Shown one piece after another: positions 7,310-18,054 of a DNA stretch of 36,802 nt; position 1 is the stretch's first letter; each line of letters begins with the position of its first letter. A model generated the notes under the pieces. It was not told the DNA's origin. It searched no databases and saw only the letters and a list, made by a program, of their open reading frames with translations. Source of the stretch: Anaerolineales bacterium (GTDB lineage Bacteria > Chloroflexota > Anaerolineae > Anaerolineales > UBA11579); the NCBI GenBank assembly GCA_026129335.1, contig JAHCIH010000018.1:1-36802 (forward strand). The letters are read 5' to 3'. The position numbers and the translations under genes were made by a program.

Positions 7310-7669
7310 CTATTGGGCGAAATGGGCCTTCAATATATCCAGCAGTTCACTGGGGGGATAAGGTTTCATCAGAAATGTATCCGCCCCGGCGGCGATAGAA
7401 AGCTGCTGGTAGTCCATCCCGGAAGTGAGTATCACAAACAGGTCTTTGAGTTCCTGATCGCCGCGAATCTTACCCAGTAGCTCCAGGCCGTCGGCGCCCT
7501 TCAGGTTCACATCTATCAACACCGCATCGGGTTTCTCGGTGCGCAAATCCACCAGGGGTTCGGCGAAGTCGGCGGGCTGGATTACGTGGTAACCCTCCAG
7601 GTGAAGGAGTTCTTGCAATAACTCAAGCAGCAGGGGCTCATCTTCCAGAAGAGCGATTTTTTTAGGCAT
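7310..7669 (-). CDS. Stand-alone response regulator receiver (REC) domain
   Basis: A 119-aa CheY-like protein made of a receiver domain only: acidic pair LLEDEP near the N-terminus, phospho-acceptor in DAVLIDVNL, switch threonine in VILTSG and lysine in FLMKPY. There is no output domain, so it must act by protein contact. The ATG at 7669 lies 8 bp inside the end of lon, with a weak AAGG just upstream, suggesting coupling to lon translation. No histidine kinase is in the window. Upstream in-frame codons lie within lon and are not needed. Confidence 0.9.
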
Positions 7670-10271
7670 TGGCCTTGGCGGGCTTTTTGGCGCCTTTGCG
7701 CGGCGACTTGCTCCCCGCCCCATTGGCTCGCTCGCGCCCCCCTTTGGCAGGCGCCAGGGCCACTTGCAGCACCTCGTCCATCGTGCGCACGAAATGGAAT
7801 TCGAGCTTGCTGCGCACTTCAGCGGGCAATTCTTCCAGGTCGACTTCGTTGCGCTCGGGAAGGATGATCGTCTTCAAACCGGCCCGGTGGGCAGCCAATA
7901 CTTTCTCCTTGATGCCGCCGACGGGCATCACCTGGCCGCGCAGGGTAATCTCGCCAGACATGCCCACGTGCGCTTTGATGGGCCGGCCGGTGAGCAGGGA
8001 GACCAGGGCGGTGACCATGGTCACGCCGGCCGAGGGGCCATCCTTGGGCTGCGCGCCGGCGGGTACATGCAGGTGGATGTCAGTGTTCTGGAAGAAGTCG
8101 GCAGAGATGCCCAACTTCTCGGCCCGCGAGCGCACGAAGGAGAGCGCCGCCTTGGCCGACTCTTGCATCACATCGCCCAATTGACCGGAAAGCTGGAAAC
8201 CCTTGCTGCCCGGCATGCGTGTGGCTTCGATGAAGAGCACGTCGCCGCCGCTGGGCGTCCAGGAAAGGCCGGTGACCACGCCGGGGAGCGAGGTGCGCCG
8301 GGTGATGTCTTCCATGTGATAGTACTTGGGCGGGCCGAGGTATTCGCGCACCAGCCCGGCGTTGATCTTCACCGTTTGAGTTTCGCCTTCGGCGATCTTG
8401 GTGACCACCTTGCGGCACACCGCGCCGATCTGGCGTTCCAGGTTGCGCACGCCGGCTTCGCGGGTATAGGAACGGATCAGGCTGCGGATGGCGTCGTTGC
8501 CGAACTTGACCTCGTTCTTGCGCAGGCCGTTCTCGGCCAACTGGCGGGGAATGAGGTAACCCTTGGCGATGGCCTGCTTATCGTTTTCCGTATAGCTGGA
8601 GAGGCGGATGATCTCCATGCGGTCGCGCAACGGGCCAGGGATCGACTCCAGCGAATTGGCCGTGGTGATGAACATGACCTGCGAAAGGTCGAAAGCGACT
8701 TCCATATAGTGGTCGCGGAATTCGCTGTTCTGTTCGGGGTCGAGCACTTCGAGCAGGGCCGAAGACGGGTCGCCGCGGAAGTCGCTGCCCAGCTTATCCA
8801 CCTCGTCGAGCATGAAGACGGGGTTGCGGCTCTCCACGCGGCGCAGCGCCTGCATGATGCGACCGGGCAGCGCGCCGATGTAGGTGCGGCGGTGGCCGCG
8901 GATCTCAGCCTCGTCGCGCACGCCGCCCAGCGAGATGCGCACGAACTCGCGGCCCAGCGCGCTGGCAATGGAGCGGCCCAGCGAGGTCTTGCCCACGCCG
9001 GGCGGGCCGACGAAGCAGAGGATCACGCCTTCGCGCTCGCGGCGGATGGTATCGTCGCGGGTCGATTTGGCCAATTCATCCTGGCGCTCGTGGCGCAGCT
9101 TACGCACCGCCAGGTATTCGAGAATGCGCTCTTTGACGTCTTTGAGGCCGTAGTGGTCCTTGTCCAACACCTTGCGGGCATGGCGGATATCCAGATTGTC
9201 TTCGGTACCGTGGGCCCAGGGGAGCGAGACCAGCCAATCTAGATAGGTGCGGATGACGCCATATTCTGCCGCAGCGGAGTTGAGCCGGGAGAGCCGGTCC
9301 AGCTCGCGGCGAGCTTGCTTATCGGCTTCTTCCGGCATGCGAGCGGCGTCGATCTTCTTACGCAGCTCTTCCACCTCAGCGGCGGCTTCGTCCATCTCGC
9401 CCAACTCACGCTGGATGGCCTTGAGCTGCTCGCGCAGGAAGTAGTCGCGCTGCATGCCCTCGATCTCGGAACGGGCCTCGTTCTGGATGCGCTGGCCCAC
9501 CTCAAGGACTTCGATCTCGCGGGTGAGGAACTCCACCAGCTTCTGCAGCTTGTCGCGCAGCGAATCGTATTCCAGCACAGTTTGCGCGTCGGCCAGTTCC
9601 ATGCGCTGCAGGTTGGCGATCAGGTAGGCGACCTGTAGAGAGTTCTCTAGGTCCAGAATGGAAGCGACCAGTTCCTGTGGGATGGTGCCGATCAGTTCGG
9701 CGATGCGCTCAAACTGGCCGCGCACGCTGCGGGCCAGCGCTTCGACTTCCAAGCCCCCTTCCAGCGACTCGGGGTGCGCCAGCACCTTCGCCTTCAGGTA
9801 GGGCTCGGTGGCAACGAATTCCTGCACACGGATGCGCGAGAGGCCCTGCACCAGCAGGCGGATGGTGCCATCCGGGGCGCGGAACAGGCGATGCACGGAT
9901 GCCAGCGTGCCTACCTGGTAGAGATCTTCCGGCCCGGGGTTCTCCTTTTCAGGGTCCTTTGAAGCCACCAGACCCACCAGGCGGGCGCCGGAGACCGCAT
10001 CGTCCACCAGGCGGATGGAGCGCGGCTGGCCGATGGTCAGCGGGACGCCGGTTTGCGGGTAGACCACGACGCCGCGCAGCGGCAGGATGGGCAACTCGTC
10101 AGGCACTTCCACGCCGTCAACCTGCGGTTTGCCGTCGCCGGCCGGGGCGTCTTTGCCCTGCAACACCTTGGTCAGTTTGGGCCCGAGGATGAATTCATCT
10201 AAATCGGGATCGTCTTCAGGCTCATCCCAAATCCAGTTGGCGTTCAACTCATCCCACCAATCGTAAGCCAT
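7662..10271 (-). CDS. lon: ATP-dependent Lon protease
   Basis: A cytoplasmic AAA+ serine protease that degrades misfolded and regulatory proteins. The N-terminal LON domain begins [16 protein letters not shown] (about residue 60). Walker A GPPGVGKT is at 422-429, Walker B FMLDEVDK at 486-493, and the catalytic dyad is S747 ([10 protein letters not shown]) with K790 (GGIKEK). All expected residues are present. At 869 aa it is longer than classic Lon (~780-810 aa): it carries a ~57-residue acidic, Trp-rich N-terminal extension ([20 protein letters not shown]) and a Lys/Arg-rich C-terminal tail ([15 protein letters not shown]). It starts on the last base of the hsp20 stop, so the two are translationally coupled. 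Confidence 0.97.
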
Positions 10272-10675
10272 CAGGAATTGCCCGCCTTGGGCAGGGTGAC
10301 CAACAGAAAGCCGTCTGAATACTCCGCTTCGATGCGCTCGGTGTCCACTGGAGCGGGAAGCTCCAACACGGAGAGGAAGTCGCCATAGCGCACTTCCAGC
10401 TGGTGGTAGGCGCCGCTCTGGCTGGGTGGCTGGCGCAGGCCGTAGAGCGCCAGCTGGCGGCCTTCGACGGCGATGTGCAGCTCGGCGTCCTGCATGCCGG
10501 CGATTTCCATGCGTACCACCAGAGCTTTCTCGGTTTCGAGCAAATCAGTCGGGGGGCGCCAGAGATGAGGCCGCGTCTTCCACTGCCGCGAGAACGAAGT
10601 GACGCGGAAGTGCACTTCCTGCGGCTGGTTCCAGGAAGCCGGGGAATGGCGGATGATCAGTTCATCTCTGGACAT
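10271..10675 (-). CDS. Hsp20/alpha-crystallin family small heat shock protein
   Basis: A 134-aa ATP-independent holdase chaperone. The alpha-crystallin domain spans roughly residues 42-130: [20 protein letters not shown], then the strand region [17 protein letters not shown], ending with [16 protein letters not shown], the conserved C-terminal signature (usually ...NGVLTITLPK). The ATG at 10675 has AAGGA 6 nt upstream. It sits 8 bp after tpx and its stop shares a base with the lon start, giving a chaperone-protease pair. A longer reading frame upstream runs only through tpx and is rejected. Confidence 0.92.
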
Positions 10676-10683
10676 GCAAATCC

Positions 10684-11199
10684 TTAGAGGGCGGCGCGGG
10701 CCGCGGCCAACACCGCGTCGAAGTCCGGAGCGTCGCCCAGGGCGGGCATGTAGTCCGCGTAGGTTACCTTGCCATCTTTGTCGACGACGAAGACTGCGCG
10801 GCGCAGAATGCGGCGGTCTTTGATCAGCACGCCGTACTTTTCGCCGAAGTTGGCATCGTAGGCGTCGGAGACGACTTTGACTTTGTCCACGCCCGCGGCG
10901 GCGCACCAACTCTTCAGCGAATACGGCAGATCAGTGCTGATGCCGTAGATGACTACATCGTCGCCCAAGCCGGCGGCCTCTTCATTGAAACGCCTCGTCT
11001 CGGCATCGCAGACGCCGGTGGCGAGCGAGGGCAGCGAAGCGATGATGCGCACCTTGCCCGGGGTGCTTTCCAAGGCGTTGACCTGGTTCCAATCATGGTC
11101 ATGGACGGTGAATTCCGGGGCCGCCTGACCCACTTCAATATCCGGGCCGACAATCGTGGCATCTTTGTCGCCCAATTTCAATAAACCGGTTCTTTCCAT
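10684..11199 (-). CDS. tpx: Thiol peroxidase (Tpx-type peroxiredoxin)
   Basis: A 171-aa atypical two-Cys peroxiredoxin that reduces hydrogen and alkyl peroxides using thioredoxin. The peroxidatic cysteine is C64 in SLATGVCDAETRRFN, equivalent to the TxxCDxxTRRFN signature of Tpx. The resolving cysteine is C99 in LKSWCAAAGV. The N-terminus VGQAAPEFTVHD and the C-terminal TYADYMPALGDAPDFDAVL also fit. The ATG at 11199 follows GAGGAG; in-frame codons upstream are not needed. It is the first gene of the tpx-hsp20-lon group, downstream of the Ub-like operon and separated from it by a terminator. Confidence 0.95.
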   Translation of the reverse strand: MERTGLLKLGDKDATIVGPDIEVGQAAPEFTVHDHDWNQVNALESTPGKVRIIASLPSLATGVCDAETRRFNEEAAGLGDDVVIYGISTDLPYSLKSWCAAAGVDKVKVVSDAYDANFGEKYGVLIKDRRILRRAVFVVDKDGKVTYADYMPALGDAPDFDAVLAAARAAL

Positions 11200-11211
11200 A
11201 GTTCTCCTCAA

Positions 11212-11504: not shown

Positions 11505-11546
11505 AAACCATGAAAGAAGCCCCGAACGGGGCTTCTTTCATGGTTT
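11505..11546. terminator. Bidirectional terminator ending the Ub-like operon
   Basis: Near-perfect long inverted repeat: AAACCATGAAAGAAGCCCC (11505-11523), a four-base GAAC turn, and the matching right arm to 11546. It lies 7 bp past the VWA stop (-) and directly after the small ORF (+), so it can end both transcripts. The distal T/A tracts are short. Confidence 0.85.
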
Positions 11547-11553
11547 GTGGTGG

Positions 11554-12675
11554 CTACTTGAGTTTAACGCGCGCCTTAACAGGCTTCTTGAGGCGCACCT
11601 TGCCGCCGCCGGCAGTTTGCGCCCCAGCCGGGCGCAAACTGCTCCACAGCATGGGCAGGATAACCAAGGCGGCCAACACGGCGATGATGCCTGCAAAGAG
11701 CGGCCAGGCAGCGGGTCGCTCCACTTCCGGCACTAGGCCGCCGGGGTTGTAGCGTGCTTCCTCGCTCAGGCCCGGGCTGGTCCCCGCTGGGGCCAGCGCC
11801 ACGCTGAGCGAGCGGTTCACGCCGTCGCGCAGCGCCGCCGGGGAGGTGTAGGTAATCACGTATTCGCTCTGCAGGGCCACGGCGTAGGTGTTGTAGAGGC
11901 GGGTGAGGCTCTCTTCGTCGTCGGCGTAGCCGTACACGCCGCCTGCCTGCTCGGCCAGGTCTTCCAGGCGGCTCTCGTTGATGCCGGCCAGCGTGCCCGC
12001 CTGGCCAGGCAGGCCTAAGCCCACCGGAGAGATGGATAACCCGGAGGGGCCGATGCGCTCGACCACTGTGTCGACATTGGCCGAGCTGGAGTTGTCCATG
12101 CCGTCGGTGAGCACGATGACCGCTTTGCGGCCGGGTTCATTCTCTAACTGCTCGATGGCAACGACCAGCGCATCGTACATGGCGGTTTCGCCATCTGCAG
12201 TCAGGCTGTCAATCGCGGCGCGCAGCGCTTCCTGGTCTCCGGTGATCGGCTGCACAATTTCGATGCGCGTGTTGAACGAAATCAGACCCACTTGGTCACC
12301 GGAGCGCATGCGGTCGATGAACTGGTGGGCGGCGGACTTGGCCGCGTCCAGCTTGCCGGCGGCATCCATGCTGCCAGAGACATCCATGACCAGCATGGTG
12401 GTCAGCGTGCCCACTTCGCCGACGCCTTCAATCTGGTCGAGCGGGATGGGCACACCGTTCTCGAAAAGCTGCAGGCGGCCGGCATCCACCGGGTAGGGGT
12501 TGCCCTCCGCATCGGTCACCGAGACGTAGACGGTAACGCGGGGAAAGTCGCTGGTGTCCACCTGGGTGATGCGGATGGCCGCCTCACCTCCGGTCTGGGC
12601 AAGTGGGGCAAAAGCGCTGCCGGCCAGCAGGGCCAGCGCGGTCAGCAGGGTTAGGGATAGGCGAAAGCGGTTCAC
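11554..12675 (-). CDS. VWA-domain membrane protein, last gene of Ub-like operon
   Basis: A 373-aa protein. A signal peptide (about residues 1-26) is followed by a ~60-residue beta-rich segment and a von Willebrand A domain (~90-275) with an intact metal-binding MIDAS: D98-x-S100-x-S102 (MDVSGSM), T164 and D191 (VLTDGMD). A transmembrane helix lies at ~324-345 (WPLFAGIIAVLAALVILPML), placing the VWA domain outside and the short basic tail inside. The tail ends KVRLKKPVKARVKLK and resembles the E2 tail. VWA domains bind protein partners through the metal; the ligand here is unknown. The GTG start at 12675 has GAGGTG upstream and lies 3 bp after the FHA stop, so it belongs to the operon. Confidence 0.88.
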   Translation of the reverse strand: MNRFRLSLTLLTALALLAGSAFAPLAQTGGEAAIRITQVDTSDFPRVTVYVSVTDAEGNPYPVDAGRLQLFENGVPIPLDQIEGVGEVGTLTTMLVMDVSGSMDAAGKLDAAKSAAHQFIDRMRSGDQVGLISFNTRIEIVQPITGDQEALRAAIDSLTADGETAMYDALVVAIEQLENEPGRKAVIVLTDGMDNSSSANVDTVVERIGPSGLSISPVGLGLPGQAGTLAGINESRLEDLAEQAGGVYGYADDEESLTRLYNTYAVALQSEYVITYTSPAALRDGVNRSLSVALAPAGTSPGLSEEARYNPGGLVPEVERPAAWPLFAGIIAVLAALVILPMLWSSLRPAGAQTAGGGKVRLKKPVKARVKLK

Positions 12676-12678
12676 AGC

Positions 12679-13536
12679 TCACCTCTTCTCGTGATAGACC
12701 ATTTGGGTGTTGCCCATGCGGATGGCCTGGTCGTTTTGCAAATTGGCCACCTGCACTTTACGGTTGTTGATGTAAGTGCCCTGGCGGCTGATGTCCTTGA
12801 GGGTCATGTGCGTATCGGCGCCTTTGAGCAGCGCGTGTTGGGGCGCGATATCGGGGTCGGGCAGCACGATGTCGGCCTTGAGCGCATCCGAGCCGATGTA
12901 AGCGCTGGGCCCGCCGGCGCGGATGAACTTGTCGAGCACGAATTCGGTGCCCTTCATCTTACCGGTGACCACTTCCAGCCAGGCCTTGGAAAGCAGCAAC
13001 ACCACCAAGGCGATGAAGGCTCCTACCGCAGCGCCCAGCAGGCCCAGGCCTGCGGCCTTGCCGACCAGCGGATCGGACAGGCGCTGGCGGGCCAGCTCCA
13101 GCAACAAGCCACCCACCGCGCCACCCAGCAGGCCGCCCAGTGCGGGCTTCCATAGCTGCGAGCTGCTGGTGATGCCGAGGCCAATGCCGATGAGCAGGCC
13201 GAAGATGGCCCAGCCCAGCGCACGCGCCCAGGATTCGCCGCCGACGAACTGGAAGGCGTATTCAGCCAGCGGCAGGCCTATCGCCCCGCCCAGCGCGCCC
13301 AGCAGGCCGCTAATCACGCCGGAACGAAGTCCGTAGAGCAGACTGCGGGCGGCAAACCCTTCGCTGAGGCCGATGAGCGCGCCGATGCAGAAGCCAATCA
13401 GCGCGCCCACGACCACTTCGCTGAGGTAGAGGTTTTGGGCGAAAGACAGGCCGAGCAGGTTGCTGACCTGCCAGCCAATCAGGCCGCCGATAGCGCCCAA
13501 CAGGCTGTAGTAGTACAAGCGTGAATAACGGTTCAT
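12679..13536 (-). CDS. Membrane-anchored FHA-domain protein
   Basis: A 285-aa protein. Residues 1-185 are a Gly/Ala/Leu-rich polytopic region of about six hydrophobic segments with glycine-zipper repeats (GGLLGGAVGGLLL). Residues ~197-285 are a cytoplasmic FHA domain: AYIGSDALKADIVLPDPDIAPQ, ALLKGADTHMTLKDIS, GTYINNRKV and DQAIRMGNTQMVYHE. FHA domains bind phosphothreonine peptides. Here the usual GR near strand 3 is IGS and the usual SRxH is APQH, so phosphopeptide binding may be altered or lost. The ATG overlaps the JAB stop as ATGA (13533-13536), with GGAG upstream, showing tight coupling to the isopeptidase. Confidence 0.88.
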   Translation of the reverse strand: MNRYSRLYYYSLLGAIGGLIGWQVSNLLGLSFAQNLYLSEVVVGALIGFCIGALIGLSEGFAARSLLYGLRSGVISGLLGALGGAIGLPLAEYAFQFVGGESWARALGWAIFGLLIGIGLGITSSSQLWKPALGGLLGGAVGGLLLELARQRLSDPLVGKAAGLGLLGAAVGAFIALVVLLLSKAWLEVVTGKMKGTEFVLDKFIRAGGPSAYIGSDALKADIVLPDPDIAPQHALLKGADTHMTLKDISRQGTYINNRKVQVANLQNDQAIRMGNTQMVYHEKR

Positions 13537-14282
13537 GGTTCTTTCTCCGTAGAGGGTTGGTCAGCCTGCCCTTGAGGCTGAGATGGTTTGCGCTTGGCCG
13601 ACGTTGCGGGCAACGCGGCCGGCTGAACGAGAGCGGATGGGTCATCCTTTGCGTCCTGCGCAGGGGATTGCAAGCGCAGGTTCTTCCAATCCACAAGCGG
13701 CTGGCGCTTGCGATTCATGAGTTCGTGAAAACCATAGAAGCGGCGAGCTTCCAATTGCTGCTCGGCGTCAGGGATGAAGAAGCCGGCGGTGTGGCTGTGC
13801 GGCTCCACCACCAAAGCCACTTGCCAGGGGTGCGGGAAGAAGTGCTGGTGCAGCCAGAGGTCGTAGCCGGAGAGGAAAATATCCATGCGCGGGTGCGTGT
13901 GATACCAGCCCACGATGCACTTGTTGGCATAGCGCTCCTCCAGCGCGGCGAGCATGGCCACCTGGCTGTCGTGCGTGAAGGTGAGAAAAGTGCTGCCCGA
14001 ACGCACCTGCTGGGCGGGCAGCAGGGCTTCGATGATGATGTACTGCGCGCCGTCCCCTGGCTGGCAGCACCAGCGGCCAGCCAGCCAGCCGCCCACTTCG
14101 TTGTCCAGGTCGCTGTTCGCGTGGCGGTCGATGGCCTGGAAAGTGGTCTGGGTGAGGAAGACCTGAGTGCGAGGCTCCCCGGGCTCGCGCTCGGCGAGCC
14201 AGCGATGGGCGCGCTCCAAGGGCATGCGCGCCACGCGCGGCTCGCCGGCGGATACCAGGGGGTGGATGGATTCTTTGTGCAT
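13533..14282 (-). CDS. JAB/MPN+ (JAMM) metalloprotease, predicted Ubl isopeptidase
   Basis: A 249-aa protein with an intact JAMM zinc motif: E62 (NEVGGWLAG) and H128-x-H130-P-x6-S138-x2-D141 (YHTHPRMDIFLSGYD). This matches the catalytic set of deubiquitinases of the RPN11/AMSH class and archaeal desampylases. It probably removes the operon's Ubl from targets. The free Ubl already ends in glycine, so precursor trimming is not required. Residues ~185-249 are a low-complexity Pro/Gln/Ala tail ending QPSTEKEP. The ATG at 14282 has no good ribosome binding site; a second Met (residue 20) is a possible start. The upstream 51-nt gap holds two hairpins. Downstream it overlaps the FHA gene by 4 bp. 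Confidence 0.92.
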   Translation of the reverse strand: MHKESIHPLVSAGEPRVARMPLERAHRWLAEREPGEPRTQVFLTQTTFQAIDRHANSDLDNEVGGWLAGRWCCQPGDGAQYIIIEALLPAQQVRSGSTFLTFTHDSQVAMLAALEERYANKCIVGWYHTHPRMDIFLSGYDLWLHQHFFPHPWQVALVVEPHSHTAGFFIPDAEQQLEARRFYGFHELMNRKRQPLVDWKNLRLQSPAQDAKDDPSALVQPAALPATSAKRKPSQPQGQADQPSTEKEP

Positions 14283-14294
14283 GGCGCCCGAAGC

Positions 14295-14332
14295 GGGGCT
14301 GGGCGCAAAGCGCCCAGCCCCGGCAAAGCCGG
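14295..14332 (-). promoter_or_regulatory. Tandem hairpins between Ubl and JAB genes
   Basis: Stem 1 is GGGGCTGGGCGC / GCGCCCAGCCCC (14295-14306 and 14310-14321, 12 bp, 3-nt loop). Stem 2 is CCGGC-AAA-GCCGG (14320-14332), overlapping by two bases. There is no T-run, so this is not a simple terminator. In the mRNA it follows the Ubl stop by 1 nt and may stabilise the Ubl message, limit read-through into the JAB gene, or occlude the weak JAB start. Confidence 0.55.
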
Positions 14333-14333
14333 T

Positions 14334-14600
14334 TCAGCCGGCGGTGACGTCGGCGGTCATGATCAGGCGGTCGTCTGCGGGGATCCCCGCGGCGGCCAGC
14401 GTCTCATCATCCTTGAGCTCGCGGCCCAGCGCCTTGCTGTCCAGGCGGTAGCCCATCGGGCGACCGTCCGGGCCTGTGGTGGGCAGCTCCAGCGAGGTGG
14501 CCAGTTCAGGGATGAGGTCTTTCACTTCCACATCGTCCGGCACGTCGGCGGAACGGCTGCCCCCTGAGGGCAACACTACAGTTACGGGTACGTCAGCCAT
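14334..14600 (-). CDS. Free ubiquitin-like protein (YukD/EsaB-like beta-grasp)
   Basis: An 88-aa beta-grasp protein and the likely conjugated modifier. Strand 1 is VTVVLPSGGS, followed by the helix region VKDLIPELATSLEL and the late strand DDRLIMTADVTAG. The sequence resembles YukD/EsaB-type Ubls. It ends exactly in ...TAG (G88), so the C-terminal glycine needed for E1 adenylation is exposed without processing; note that it is a single Gly, not GlyGly. About 64 of 85 aligned residues match the Ubl domain fused to E2, with residues 43-63 identical. AAAGGAG 7 nt upstream makes this the strongest ribosome binding site in the operon, consistent with abundant production. Confidence 0.9.
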   Translation of the reverse strand: MADVPVTVVLPSGGSRSADVPDDVEVKDLIPELATSLELPTTGPDGRPMGYRLDSKALGRELKDDETLAAAGIPADDRLIMTADVTAG

Positions 14601-14662
14601 TTTCTTGCTCCTTTCGAGTCTTGTCTTGGCACATCAACGGCAATCAGGTCTGCCGGGAACCA

Positions 14663-15505
14663 CTATTTGAGGCGAATGCGCGGCTTGGTGGTTTTCTTCT
14701 TCTTATCGGTGAGGCGGATGCGCTCAGGGCGCAGCAGCTCGCGGCTGTCCACCGGGAAAGCGCGCGGGTTGCGCCGGCGGTACTCGCGGCTCCAACGCGC
14801 CGCTTCGGGGTCCCAGGGGAACGGCGGCTTGGTGGGGTCGTCGTGGAAGTTCTTGTATTGCACCATCTCGCCAATCATCAGCACCAGGCGGTCCAGCGAG
14901 CGGCTGGCCGTCCACCAGGCGGCGTCCACGCAGACGGTGCCGTTGAGGTGGTTGATGTTGGGGTGCCAAACCGGGGTCAGCCACTTCATGCCCGGCCAGC
15001 GCTGGGGATATTGGTTGTGCAGGTAGATTTCCACCTGGTGGCGGTTGCCAATCTTGGGGGTACCCGCCCGGTCCACACCCGTGATGCCCTTGCAGGTATA
15101 GGTGACGATGTAACGTTCGGGCGGCAGACCGCGACGTTCCGAGAAGGCTTCAAAGTCGATGAAGTCGCTCTGGGCGGCCAGTTCCTGCATGCGGACCAAG
15201 TCGGCCTTGAGGCGGCGCATTCGCGGGCTTTCCCCCAGCGCGCCGGCGGTGATGTCAGCGGTGAGGATGAGGCGGTCGTCTGCCGGAATACCTGCTGAGG
15301 CCAGCGTCTCGTCCTCCTTGAGTTCGCGGCCCAGCGCCTTGCTGTCCAGGCGATAGCCCATCGGGCGGCCGTCCGGGCCAACGGTGGGCAACTCCAGCAG
15401 CGAAGCCAGCTCGGTGATCAATTCGCGGATGGGGATATCGTCCGGCATTTCGGCCTTGCGCGCCCCTCCGCTGGGCATAACAACGGTGATTTCAATTTCT
15501 GCCAT
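14663..15505 (-). CDS. E2-like ubiquitin-conjugating enzyme with N-terminal Ubl domain
   Basis: A 280-aa fusion. Residues 1-88 are a Ubl nearly identical to the free one (ending DITAG, then ALGESP). Residues ~93-245 are a UBC fold: helix 1 (RMRRLKADLVRMQELAAQ), the strand-loop QYPQRWPGMKWLTPVWHPN, the HPN motif at 181-183, and catalytic C192 in NGTVCVDAAWW, followed by a helix like LVLMIGEMVQY. Key E2 residues are thus all present. The tail (260-280) is very basic and repeats RIRL (ERIRL and PRIRLK). E2s accept Ubl from E1 as a thioester. The ATG at 15505 has AGGAG upstream; a TTG 15 nt earlier would put that site inside the gene. It starts 11 bp after the RING-like gene stop. Confidence 0.93.
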   Translation of the reverse strand: MAEIEITVVMPSGGARKAEMPDDIPIRELITELASLLELPTVGPDGRPMGYRLDSKALGRELKEDETLASAGIPADDRLILTADITAGALGESPRMRRLKADLVRMQELAAQSDFIDFEAFSERRGLPPERYIVTYTCKGITGVDRAGTPKIGNRHQVEIYLHNQYPQRWPGMKWLTPVWHPNINHLNGTVCVDAAWWTASRSLDRLVLMIGEMVQYKNFHDDPTKPPFPWDPEAARWSREYRRRNPRAFPVDSRELLRPERIRLTDKKKKTTKPRIRLK

Positions 15506-15516
15506 GATGGTTCTCC

Positions 15517-16377
15517 TCAATCAACATATTGGTGCGGCACCTGGCAAACGCCGGTGACTTCCCAGCAGTCGGCGTGGTGCCAGGTCTTGCAGACTTTGCA
15601 AATCTTCACGCCGCGCGAGTCGCGCTTGGTGACCACTTCCAGGCAATAGGGGCAGACGTGCGTCTCTGCGCCGGAAAAATGCACCGCGGGGCGGCGCCGG
15701 GTGCGCCGCGGCCGCGCCGGTTTGGCCGGGGCGGCCACACGGCGGCGGGCCGGCCGGCGTACTGTGGGGCCGGGCAGTAGGCTGACCAGCCTGGCGCGAG
15801 CCCGGTCGCGCCAGGCGACGAACGACGTGCGGATGCTACGCCGCGGCGCGGGGCGGGCGGAGCGCACCCGCCGGGCCGGACGCACCGCGGGCGGCGGGGG
15901 TGACGGGGCCACGGCAATCGCCGCGCGCGGCTCGACCAGGATTTCGGTGCGCCGCGGGGCAAAGGCGCTGAGCGCCAGCCAGGCGGCGGCGCTGCTGAGC
16001 GCCAAGGCGATGCCGCCCTGGCGGGCCGGCTGGGCGACGTATTGACGCAGCGGGTCGATGCCCACCGCGCCCTGGCTGGCCTGGCTGGCCAGCCACAAAG
16101 CCGCGCAGAGGGCGAACAAGACCACCGCGGCGCGCAGGCCGGTGCTGCGCCCAGCCAAAAAGTAGCGACTACTGAAGCCGGCGGCCAGACCGGTGACGCT
16201 CAACAACACGTATTCGATGGCGGCAGCGGAAATCTGCAAATCCGCCGAAAAGAGCAGCAGCATGCCAAGGGCCGCCACCACGGTAACCAAAGTCACCAAG
16301 ATGACCCGCTCCAGCAAGCGGCCCAGAGTGCTGCTAGTCGAAACCATCGGCGAAATCCTGCTCAAGTAGACAGCCAT
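15517..16377 (-). CDS. Membrane-anchored RING-like zinc finger protein, predicted E3
   Basis: A 286-aa protein with four hydrophobic helices (about 25-45, 53-75, 81-100, 121-140), a ~90-residue Arg/Pro/Ala-rich cytoplasmic linker (150-235, strongly basic), and a C-terminal treble-clef/RING-like finger. The ligands are C242-x2-C245, C260-x2-C263, H267-H268, C271 and C278 (CPYC...CKVCKTWHHADCW...C). This C..C-C..C-HH..C-C spacing matches prokaryotic RING families found beside E1/E2 genes. It probably brings charged E2 and targets together at the membrane. The ATG at 16377 is 2 bp after the E1 stop and lacks a clear ribosome binding site (coupled translation); an ATG at 16347 is an alternative start. 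Confidence 0.88.
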   Translation of the reverse strand: MAVYLSRISPMVSTSSTLGRLLERVILVTLVTVVAALGMLLLFSADLQISAAAIEYVLLSVTGLAAGFSSRYFLAGRSTGLRAAVVLFALCAALWLASQASQGAVGIDPLRQYVAQPARQGGIALALSSAAAWLALSAFAPRRTEILVEPRAAIAVAPSPPPPAVRPARRVRSARPAPRRSIRTSFVAWRDRARARLVSLLPGPTVRRPARRRVAAPAKPARPRRTRRRPAVHFSGAETHVCPYCLEVVTKRDSRGVKICKVCKTWHHADCWEVTGVCQVPHQYVD

Positions 16378-16379
16378 GC

Positions 16380-18011
16380 CTAATCAACGAGATGGATGCG
16401 CCCGCCATCGGGCATGTCGCCAGCGTCCGCCACCTGATCGCCGAGGCGCACGCGCGACTCGGCGACGGGGCTGGGTTCAGCTTCGGCGAAGTGGTTGAAG
16501 TGCAGCGCCTCGTCCAGATCGCCGGTGAGTTCGTAGAACCGGAACTGGCGGCCGTTGGTGGCGCGGACGACGTGCAGCGGCGGCACGCCCACGCTGGCCA
16601 GGCTGCGGTCCAGGAAGGCTTCGTCACCGCGGATGGTGTGGGTCATCACCACTTCGCGCATCTGTCCGCAGGTGGGGCAGTGGCCGGCCTCGAAGGACAC
16701 CTGCGACATGGGCTTGAGCACCTGCTCAGAGGTATTGCAGACCATGCAGTTCAACGAGAGCACGATTTCTTCGTCCAACTCCAGCACGGCCTCCTGGCCC
16801 AGGTCGGCGAAGGCCAGGTCAAGCATTTCGCCCAGGCTGGTCGTTTCGGCGCGCAGCGGGGTTTCGCTGATTTCGCCGTACACCCAATGGCTCTCGCAAT
16901 CCTGCTCAGGCAGGTAGGCGGTGGTGTGCATGTGATTGGTATAGCCGTTGAAGTGGGTCACCTTGCCCGGCTCCACCGGCATATCGTGGATGAGCTTGAG
17001 CGCCTCTTGCGACTGCATGGCGCCGATGATGGACGCGATGGTGGGTGTGGTGGGCACCTTGCCCAGCAGGATGTTCTGGCGGGCGAGCAGCGGGCAGGAA
17101 TAGCGCAGCGCCAGGTCGCGGCGGGCCTGCTCCGTGAGGGTGCACTCGAAGCAGGCGCCCTCCCCCGGCACGAAGACACGCACCAAGCCGAGCAGCTCCT
17201 GGATGGCCCCATCCACCCAGGGCTTGTTCATCCAATAAGCGAAGCGGTTCACCGCCAGGCGAGCCTCGCGGTTGTCCAGGCAGCCTACGATGACGTCCAT
17301 ACGGCGGAAGATACCCAGGCCGATATCGTGGGTCACATCGCCGTGCAGGTATTGCACCTGCACGTCGGGGTTGATTTCTTTGGCGCGGGCGGCGGCCAAT
17401 TGAGCCTTCTCGCGGCCGGAATCCTTCTCGCGGAACAGGATGGAGCGACTGAGGTTGGCCAGCTCCACCTTGTCGAAATCGACCACGTAGATGTGGCCGA
17501 TGCCCATCAGGGTGAGGTTCTTGATGACTTCGTTGCCCAGCGCGCCGGCGCCCACCACCATCACGCGTGCCTGGCGGACTTTTTCACGTTCCCACCAGGA
17601 GATGAAATTGAAAGTGCCCAGGCGGTCTTTCTTGAGGTTGGGGATGTGCAGCGGCTTCTCTTTGGCCACCGGCAGGCGGCGGGGCCCTTCGGCCGGGGCG
17701 GCCTTGCGCCGGGCTGGCTTCGCCGTGGCCAGCGGCGAGATCCTGGCGGCCAACTTACGCGCCCGGGCGGCCAGCGGCGCGGAGAGCGGCCCCACCAGCC
17801 AACCCACGCCCTGGTGCGGCTGAATCAGCTCGGCTTCGGCGAGGATCTGCAGCCCCTCGCGCAGCGAAGAACGGCTGACGCCGAGGTCCTTGATCAGGTC
17901 GCGCTCCGGCGGCAGGTAGGCGCCGGGCAGGTATTCTTTTTCCAGCAGCGAAGCGGCCAGGCGGCCGGCGACCAGCTCGGGGATCGTGCTGCGGGGGATG
18001 GCATTGCTCAT
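16380..18011 (-). CDS. GntR-type winged helix fused to E1-like (ThiF/MoeB) Ubl-activating enzyme
   Basis: A 543-aa fusion. Residues 7-75 are a GntR/FadR-type winged helix (PELVAGRLAASLLEKEYLPG, PPERDLIKDLGVSRSSLREG, then the wing HQGVGWLVG). A Lys/Arg/Pro linker follows. Residues ~125-345 are an E1 adenylation domain: GAGALG (154-159), D178-x-D180, N186 and R189 (ELANLSRSILF), K202, and CLDN (244-247). CFEC (287, 290) is a zinc pair as in MoeB. C306 in YSCPLLA, before PTTPTIASIIGAMQSQEALKLI, is the best candidate for the thioester cysteine. A second cysteine set (C422/C425, C445/C448) marks a zinc ribbon in the C-terminal domain. The ATG at 18011 follows GGAGA. It is the first gene of the operon, with a matching palindromic operator just upstream. 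Confidence 0.92.
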   Translation of the reverse strand: MSNAIPRSTIPELVAGRLAASLLEKEYLPGAYLPPERDLIKDLGVSRSSLREGLQILAEAELIQPHQGVGWLVGPLSAPLAARARKLAARISPLATAKPARRKAAPAEGPRRLPVAKEKPLHIPNLKKDRLGTFNFISWWEREKVRQARVMVVGAGALGNEVIKNLTLMGIGHIYVVDFDKVELANLSRSILFREKDSGREKAQLAAARAKEINPDVQVQYLHGDVTHDIGLGIFRRMDVIVGCLDNREARLAVNRFAYWMNKPWVDGAIQELLGLVRVFVPGEGACFECTLTEQARRDLALRYSCPLLARQNILLGKVPTTPTIASIIGAMQSQEALKLIHDMPVEPGKVTHFNGYTNHMHTTAYLPEQDCESHWVYGEISETPLRAETTSLGEMLDLAFADLGQEAVLELDEEIVLSLNCMVCNTSEQVLKPMSQVSFEAGHCPTCGQMREVVMTHTIRGDEAFLDRSLASVGVPPLHVVRATNGRQFRFYELTGDLDEALHFNHFAEAEPSPVAESRVRLGDQVADAGDMPDGGRIHLVD

Positions 18012-18037
18012 CGTTTCGCGTCTCCGGCGCGGCGGTC

Positions 18038-18054
18038 TGTTGGTCAGACCAACA
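18038..18054. promoter_or_regulatory. Predicted GntR/FadR-family operator
   Basis: TGTTGGTCAGACCAACA is a perfect 8+1+8 palindrome 26 bp upstream of the E1 start. It fits the TGGTnnnACCA core known for FadR/PdhR-type GntR regulators, and the adjacent gene encodes exactly such a winged helix. Position near a start site suggests autorepression. Direct binding is inference. Confidence 0.75.

Follow-up and report, generated by a model that had tools for sequence, protein, structure and literature searches.

A seven-gene Anaerolineales operon for a probable membrane-anchored ubiquitin-like conjugation pathway, with a GntR-fused E1 predicted to repress its own transcription

Bacterial gene neighbourhoods that combine an E1, an E2, a Prok-RING protein, a JAB peptidase and a YukD-like ubiquitin-like protein (Ubl) were reportedly described by Burroughs, Iyer and Aravind in 2011. 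Those operons share this association with the locus described here, a seven-gene operon on contig JAHCIH010000018.1 of the Anaerolineales bacterium assembly GCA_026129335.1, of which a stretch of 36,802 nucleotides, hereafter called the window, was analysed. Judged from its sequence, this operon probably encodes a membrane-anchored Ubl conjugation pathway whose E1, fused to a GntR winged helix, is predicted to repress its own operon through the upstream palindrome TGGTCTGACCA. Whereas bacterial E1/E2/RING/JAB/YukD sets are already known, the GntR-fused E1 and its operator are new within our search of the open-access literature, in which no DNA-binding E1, no such operator and no C-terminal tails of the kind described below appeared among the matches listed, as far as the excerpts of these papers go.

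The operon of Ca. Caldiarchaeum subterraneum likewise encodes an E1, an E2, a small RING protein and ubiquitin, with a JAMM/Rpn11 protease nearby (PMC5654768). That pathway has been reconstituted in vitro; the archaeal ubiquitin carries a pro-peptide, whereas the YukD-type Ubl of the window already ends in Ala-Gly, and a GntR domain, FHA and VWA do not occur in the excerpted archaeal text (PMC5654768). BilABCD similarly unites a Ubl, an E1, an E2 and a JAMM protease within one operon, but BilA consists of two Ubl domains and the set comprises four genes, whereas the window has a single free Ubl of 88 amino acids next to a Ubl-E2 fusion, and its seven genes add a RING-like, an FHA and a VWA protein as well as the GntR domain on the E1 (PMC11354881). 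Measured by the two-domain BilA and the four-gene set, the operon is not a BilABCD system. Two sister operons from the same class (L058 and L059) encode E1 proteins that are 55-57% identical to that of the window over the core, and the E1 of L058 is identical to a protein (P0241) named from Candidatus Promineifilum breve. This Promineifilum-type operon also has a Ubl (ending in VTAG), an E2 and a JAMM protease; the sister operons differ in that their E1 lacks the GntR domain, their E2 lacks the fused Ubl, and neither FHA nor VWA was matched. Positions 5344-9399 of L058, read from open reading frames, hold two JAMM genes and two different genes for RING/PHD-like zinc fingers.

In the window, the seven genes run head to tail on the minus strand from 18011 to 11554, separated by gaps of 2-62 nucleotides or joined by a 4-nucleotide overlap:

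18041..18051, minus strand: predicted FadR-type operator TGGTCTGACCA, which starts 40 and ends 30 nucleotides before the E1 ATG.
16380..18011, minus strand: E1 of 543 amino acids with Pfam ThiF and GntR on one protein; a GntR/FadR-type winged helix at about residues 10-89 is joined by a disordered linker to the ThiF/E1 adenylation core (about 133-378), where the candidate catalytic Cys306 sits on a flexible loop; then come two CxxC pairs in a C-terminal region whose alignment is UFD-like (UFD, ubiquitin-fold domain), and a disordered tail to GRIHLVD.
15517..16377, minus strand: RING-like membrane protein, candidate E3, with N-terminal hydrophobic helices and a C-terminal Prok-RING_1 zinc finger.
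14663..15505, minus strand: Ubl-E2 fusion of a YukD-type Ubl (ending in ADITAG) and a UBC domain with HPN at 181-183 and Cys192; tail KPRIRLK.
14334..14600, minus strand: free Ubl of 88 amino acids, YukD-type beta-grasp, C-terminal TAG.
13533..14282, minus strand: JAMM/MPN+ metalloprotease with E62, H128, H130, S138 and D141.
12679..13536, minus strand, overlapping the JAMM gene: FHA-fold protein, a multi-helix membrane protein with the FHA domain at its C-terminus.
11554..12675, minus strand: VWA protein with a signal-like N-terminal helix, a VWA domain with a metal ion-dependent adhesion site (MIDAS), a C-terminal hydrophobic helix and the basic tail ARVKLK.
11506..11545, minus strand: hairpin terminator with an 18-bp stem (fold z -7.7).

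A preliminary description of this DNA had placed seven genes on one strand at 11554..18054, with short gaps or overlaps and a single terminator at the end. The gene set, its compact arrangement and the hairpin all stand, but the outer boundary does not, the E1 start being most likely the ATG at 18011 and not 18054. The hairpin is absent from the list of a simple terminator scan, though it is real by its fold z.

The regulatory part of our proposal is founded on the E1 and on the DNA in front of it. Pfam detects both ThiF (5e-56) and GntR (7.6e-14; 51.6 bits versus a cut-off of 27) on the E1, the predicted model shows a confident winged helix at residues 10-89, and the solved structures related in sequence to this N-terminus are GntR regulators, with Rv0494 as the best (1.3e-9), followed by PdhR among others. 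FadR contacts its DNA through E34, R35, R45, R49 and E50 (PMC4494728). The equivalent residues E36, R37, R47 and R51 are present in 78 of 78 E1 proteins and E52 in 77 of 78. Of the three FadR-subfamily features, the E1 carries the winged helix with its DNA-contact residues, and a palindromic site of the TNGTNNNACNA type lies in front of its gene.

From the FadR-type contact residues follows the prediction of an operator resembling the FadR consensus TNGTNNNACNA (PMC2230225), and the search pattern, TNGTN{1,5}ACNA, was chosen before the upstream DNA had been inspected. Fifteen of the first 16 loci possess such a site, with a spacer of 3 and a start 22-39 nucleotides before the aligned start; the remaining one, L020, has one base changed. 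A larger set of 81 loci (the window and L060-L139) left 78 testable ones after removal of L069, L114 and L119, in which the contig stops short of the E1 start. Of these 78 loci, 75 contain the core GGTN3AC[CT], starting 24-46 nucleotides upstream, against a mean of 1.2 and a maximum of 5 in mononucleotide shuffles; 51 of the 75 sites read exactly TGGTCTGACCA, 67 match TNGTNNNACNA fully, and the other eight deviate only in the outer T or A. Because the search pattern fixes operator positions 2-4 and 8-9 and limits position 10 to C or T, the logo is evidence only at the unfixed positions. There, among 67 loci less than 80% alike, positions 1, 5, 6, 7 and 11 hold 1.0-1.9 bits and an extra half-site at positions 14 and 16-19 holds 1.4-2.0 bits, with about 0.1 bits in most distal columns. 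Additional half-sites have been described for GntR regulators (PMC4494728), and in the window a weaker one, ACAGACC, follows TGGTCTGACCA.

The window assembly, which is 72% complete, contains a single exact copy of the 11-mer TGGTCTGACCA, located at the operon. The longer pattern TGGTCTGACCANNANACCA is present in 13 of 41 genomes, in one copy each and always at the E1; these are 13 of the 16 genomes with the E1 versus none of the 25 without it. An exact match is lacking in three carriers (G000, the window assembly, as well as G004 and G017), each of which has one base changed at the E1 promoter. No operator core lies within 150 nucleotides of the E1 genes of the sister operons, which lack the GntR domain, and GntR domain and operator are hence present or absent together across these two operon types, with the exception of L122 and L124. 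A wide regulon was rejected at the level of exact matches, since carriers and non-carriers do not differ in their number of copies of the 11-mer TGGTCTGACCA (0-6 per genome) and a reversed-pattern control gave similar counts. Operator position 5 varies with E1 residue 67; because residue 21, which is no listed contact, covaries with it as well, we read this as a clade effect and not as protein-DNA covariation. Wherever position 5 is A, in seven loci, residue 67, which aligns with FadR His65, is His, and four loci with C also have this His; the loci combining A with His67 are probably one clade.

The enzymatic part of the proposal draws on domain matches and conserved residues. GAGALG, the GxGxxG motif of the ThiF adenylation fold, is present in 80 of 81 E1 proteins, and the cysteine of YSC[PQ], Cys306 in the window, in all 81 (74 with YSCP, seven with YSCQ); this residue, which sits within a low-confidence model loop (303-320), is the putative Ubl thioester cysteine. 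In profile comparisons scored over single stretches, SAE2 (102.7 bits) lies slightly above ThiF (93.5) and MoeB (86.1), and the E1 model aligns with SAE2 up to residue 498, beyond the ThiF core. UBA7 and UBA1 head the list of E1 matches only because two stretches are summed. The Ubl-E2 protein matches UQ_con (7.7e-11; 42.2 bits versus a cut-off of 27), and its best PDB profile match is E2-25K (1.1e-8); HPN-x8-C is found in 76 of 77 E2 proteins, the single miss being cut by a contig end. YukD is matched above its cut-off on both the fusion and the free Ubl (8.8e-12 and 1.1e-10 across the two proteins). A C-terminal TAG is present on 71 of 72 free Ubl proteins; the one of L124 ends in TAGA, so that one extra residue would need trimming. 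The metalloprotease (Prok-JAB, 2e-9, above cut-off) keeps E62, H128, H130, S138 and D141, the E plus HxH-x7-S-x2-D zinc motif of JAMM isopeptidases, in at least 97% of 73 sequences. Since AD[IVL]TAG is kept at the Ubl/E2 junction in 65 of 77 proteins, with TTDITAG in five others inspected (L071, L088, L093, L102 and L121), the fused Ubl is possibly a precursor cleaved by the JAMM protease. The fusion is not universal, given that the E2 match of L057/L123, which are one contig, starts past the Ubl part.

The partner proteins point to the membrane. A simple hydropathy analysis of six loci gave 3-5 helices for the RING-like protein, and 3-6 for the FHA protein. The VWA protein has two, one of them signal-like and the other close to the C-terminus; in one locus a third segment is added. 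VWA_2 (5.5e-22) and FHA (2.1e-11) both exceed their Pfam cut-offs, and the MIDAS residues D98, S100, S102, T164 and D191 are kept in at least 97% of 65 VWA proteins. FHA domains that read phosphothreonine contact it through GR, SxxH and NG. In 67 of 67 FHA sequences GS stands in place of GR, the second motif is mostly APQH, and Asn is not among the four commonest residues preceding Gly253. Because these canonical contact residues are missing from the family, phosphothreonine reading was rejected as the default role and the domain should not be taken as a phospho-recognition module.

Short basic C-terminal tails, for example KPRIRLK and ARVKLK, are common to the E1, the Ubl-E2 fusion and the VWA protein; on the E1, it stands at the end of a stretch modelled with low confidence. 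A regular expression for the last 12 residues, [KRH][VI][KRHITQVSN][LIVMF][KRHD], which was composed after the tails had been seen, matches 48 of 78 E1, 59 of 76 Ubl-E2 and 47 of 66 VWA proteins, as compared with none of 77 RING-like, 68 FHA, 71 JAMM and 72 Ubl proteins (0/288 together) and 5 of 353 tails from control open reading frames, some of which are possibly unexcluded operon proteins. The enrichment over the other operon proteins and the control reading frames is clear. All three proteins match at once in 18 of 66 loci only, and GRIHLVD, the tail of the E1 encoded in the window, is not among the matching ones. A strict codon pattern for the tail was found in 12 of 41 genomes, 10 times in the operon and twice elsewhere, with 5 for the reversed control. 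These tails might serve as a docking site or as an acceptor; the acceptor reading is a reasonable one because a C-terminal lysine of the archaeal E2 becomes modified (PMC5654768).

The E1 was found in 15 of 40 relatives, namely in 9 of 10 from the genus, where one copy breaks off at the edge of its contig, in 2 of 13 from the rest of the family and in 4 of 17 from the rest of the order. Thirteen of 15 fetched relative loci have the same seven genes in the same order, and the remaining two leave their contigs, so that the order is kept in 13 of 13 relatives for which the fetched DNA covers the whole operon. A scan of named genomes from the Chloroflexota, of whose 393 relatives the best 80 were kept, found all seven genes in order in 67 of these 80 loci; 12 of the other 13 run into a contig end, and L130 has the first five genes and room for the rest, its FHA and VWA genes either missing or too diverged to be found. 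Chance falls far short of explaining this linkage. The E2 type is rare in the phylum, its profile matching in 12 of 400 sampled genomes of Chloroflexota, including that of the window. Protein searches were evaluated for their best 120 matches. The operon E1 is the sole ThiF-family match in the window assembly, and many relatives have a second one with about 30-37% identity to the E1 core. All eight same-genus loci scanned (L012-L019) have a tRNA-Arg (TCT) gene, a possible insertion site, at a distance of about 0.2-4 kb from the start of the E1. After the operon, on the same strand at 7662-11211 of the window, follow Tpx-, Hsp20- and Lon-like genes as read from open reading frames; of the 13 intact relative loci, four (L014-L017) have such genes in the flanking DNA that was fetched.

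Several observations weigh against an autoregulated conjugation pathway. The all-helical ligand-binding domain of FadR regulators was not detected on the E1 by Pfam up to an E-value of 1, and ThiF stands in its place; the E1 is for this reason not a true member of the FadR subfamily, although it would work like one. Three of the 78 testable loci have no core near the E1 start. One of them, L139, has TGGTCTGACCG at -198, and the two others, the mutually similar L122 and L124, keep the GntR residues in the absence of the operator; these two share a different palindrome, AACTGGTATNATAANNATACCAGTT, about 170 nucleotides upstream of the E1. The loci are kin, and the counts of 75 in 78 are consequently not independent. 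A scan for sigma-70 promoters recognised none in the window region (shuffles gave a mean of 1.0), which leaves repression by promoter occlusion hypothetical. On the enzymatic side, the best UBA7 stretch on the E1 (76.7 bits) scores below ThiF (83.5 bits). The predicted fold of the RING-like protein resembles RING and PHD alike, with no match at E<=0.001, and Prok-RING_1 falls below its cut-off on the window protein (9.1e-4). A second scan matched Prok-RING_1 on 10 of 10 family members given (best 2.3e-10), and the ligands of the C-C-C-C-HH-C-C-H zinc finger are kept in at least 97% of 75 sequences; RING is the weakest label in the operon.

Most of what the preliminary description had read from this DNA survives these analyses: the GAGALG motif and candidate Cys306 of the E1, the HPN motif and Cys192 of an E2 whose fold the profile searches now place, the Gly end of the free Ubl, the complete set of JAMM ligands, the FHA and VWA partners, and a linkage that persists in every examined relative whose contig spans the genes, L130 excepted. 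Its RING-like finger gains from the family matches and the conserved ligands and loses from the window score and the mixed fold. It spoke of unusual fusions, but the GntR-E1 fusion had been missed, as had the operator and the shared tails.

Other explanations of these data have to be considered. The winged helix of the E1 could be a protein-interaction or dimerisation module, and a different GntR regulator could be the one that reads the palindrome. Proteins are possible partners of winged helices, relatives have other GntR proteins to which the E1 N-terminus is weakly matched, and operator variants and protein residues differ mostly by clade. We nevertheless hold this to be distinctly improbable, as the DNA-contact residues are invariant beyond the mere fold, TGGTCTGACCANNANACCA is confined to the E1, once per genome, with none in the 25 genomes devoid of it, and no operator accompanies the GntR-less E1 of the two sister loci. 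That the Ubl serves sulfur transfer or an assembly resembling the type VII secretion system, and not protein conjugation, appears very unlikely, because the same fixed gene order includes a JAMM protease and an E2 that has both HPN and Cys, and because the Ubl has its TAG end in 71 of 72 cases; its membership in the YukD Pfam family, the ThiF and MoeB structures among the closest folds to the E1 model, and the reported finding that YukD of B. subtilis is not conjugated (PMC1779556) speak in favour of this reading.

We likewise give little credence to an anti-phage defence operon of the Bil kind or of the kind accessory to cyclic oligonucleotide-based antiphage signalling systems (CBASS). It would fit the patchy distribution of the E2 profile in the phylum and of the E1 in the family outside the genus, and the PADLOC matches listed for the operon, found on the E1 and the JAMM protein, are E1-E2 (best 7.2e-20), BilD (2.5e-6) and JAB (best 7.7e-8) only. 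An extracytoplasmic VWA protein would be odd for a defence system, however; composition and order are nearly constant between families and the E1 is present in nine of the ten other genus genomes, no effector or nucleotide cyclase is matched by Pfam on any of the seven proteins, and a CBASS CD-NTase or effector is absent from them by Pfam and among the PADLOC matches listed (for the E1, 25 of 30). It is unlikely, finally, that the Ubl marks proteins for destruction, for example by the Lon encoded nearby in the window and in four intact relative loci, since the flanking DNA fetched for the other nine revealed no Lon. Proteasomal degradation was rejected: no proteasome-family protein was detected in any of the 15 carrier genomes searched, of 16 known (controls ring in 10/14), which favours a non-proteasomal role.

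We thus return to a membrane-anchored conjugation pathway under the control of its own E1. In our model, the E1 would adenylate the C-terminal Gly of the Ubl, load the Ubl onto Cys306 and hand it over to Cys192 of the E2; the RING-like finger would aid its transfer onto targets at the membrane, and the JAMM protease would take the Ubl off again and may cut the fused Ubl after TAG. The biotin ligase BirA, which forms an acyl-adenylate, is also the repressor of its operon. It, too, has a winged helix fused to an enzyme fold and differs in that the enzyme family found in the window activates protein modifiers. With the operator positioned just before the genes and a DNA-binding domain on the E1, the E1 likely switches its own operon, and by analogy we predict that it represses it as BirA does. 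E1 dimers, replacing the ligand-binding domain of FadR, would keep a pair of winged helices in place on the palindrome, and how tightly they bind DNA would depend on what the E1 is loaded with (ATP, Ubl or Ubl thioester), thereby establishing a BirA-like negative autoregulation in which synthesis follows demand. The MocR regulators are GntR-enzyme fusions too (PMC4944035), again with a winged helix on an enzyme fold, and the difference in enzyme family applies to them as it does to BirA. As a tentative extension, which may well prove wrong, we propose that this ubiquitin-type E1 acts as a transcription factor in its own right, its Ubl-adenylate or thioester state gating the GntR dimer, so that the charging of the modifier would be measured at the operon promoter, and that the shared tail on E1, Ubl-E2 and VWA docks the pathway on, or is an acceptor at, a membrane complex of the FHA, RING-like and VWA proteins.

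The operon likely represents a bacterial E1-E2-RING pathway outside the known defence systems. Its operator is short and sharply conserved and thereby testable, and since the complete genomes of Pelolinea submarina MO-CFX1 (L071) and Leptolinea sp. HRD-7 (L134) carry all seven genes and the operator core, the pathway is open to study in a named strain. If our reading is true, this would be, to our knowledge, the first ubiquitin-like E1 that reads DNA, and the activation of a protein modifier and transcription would be tied together in one polypeptide.

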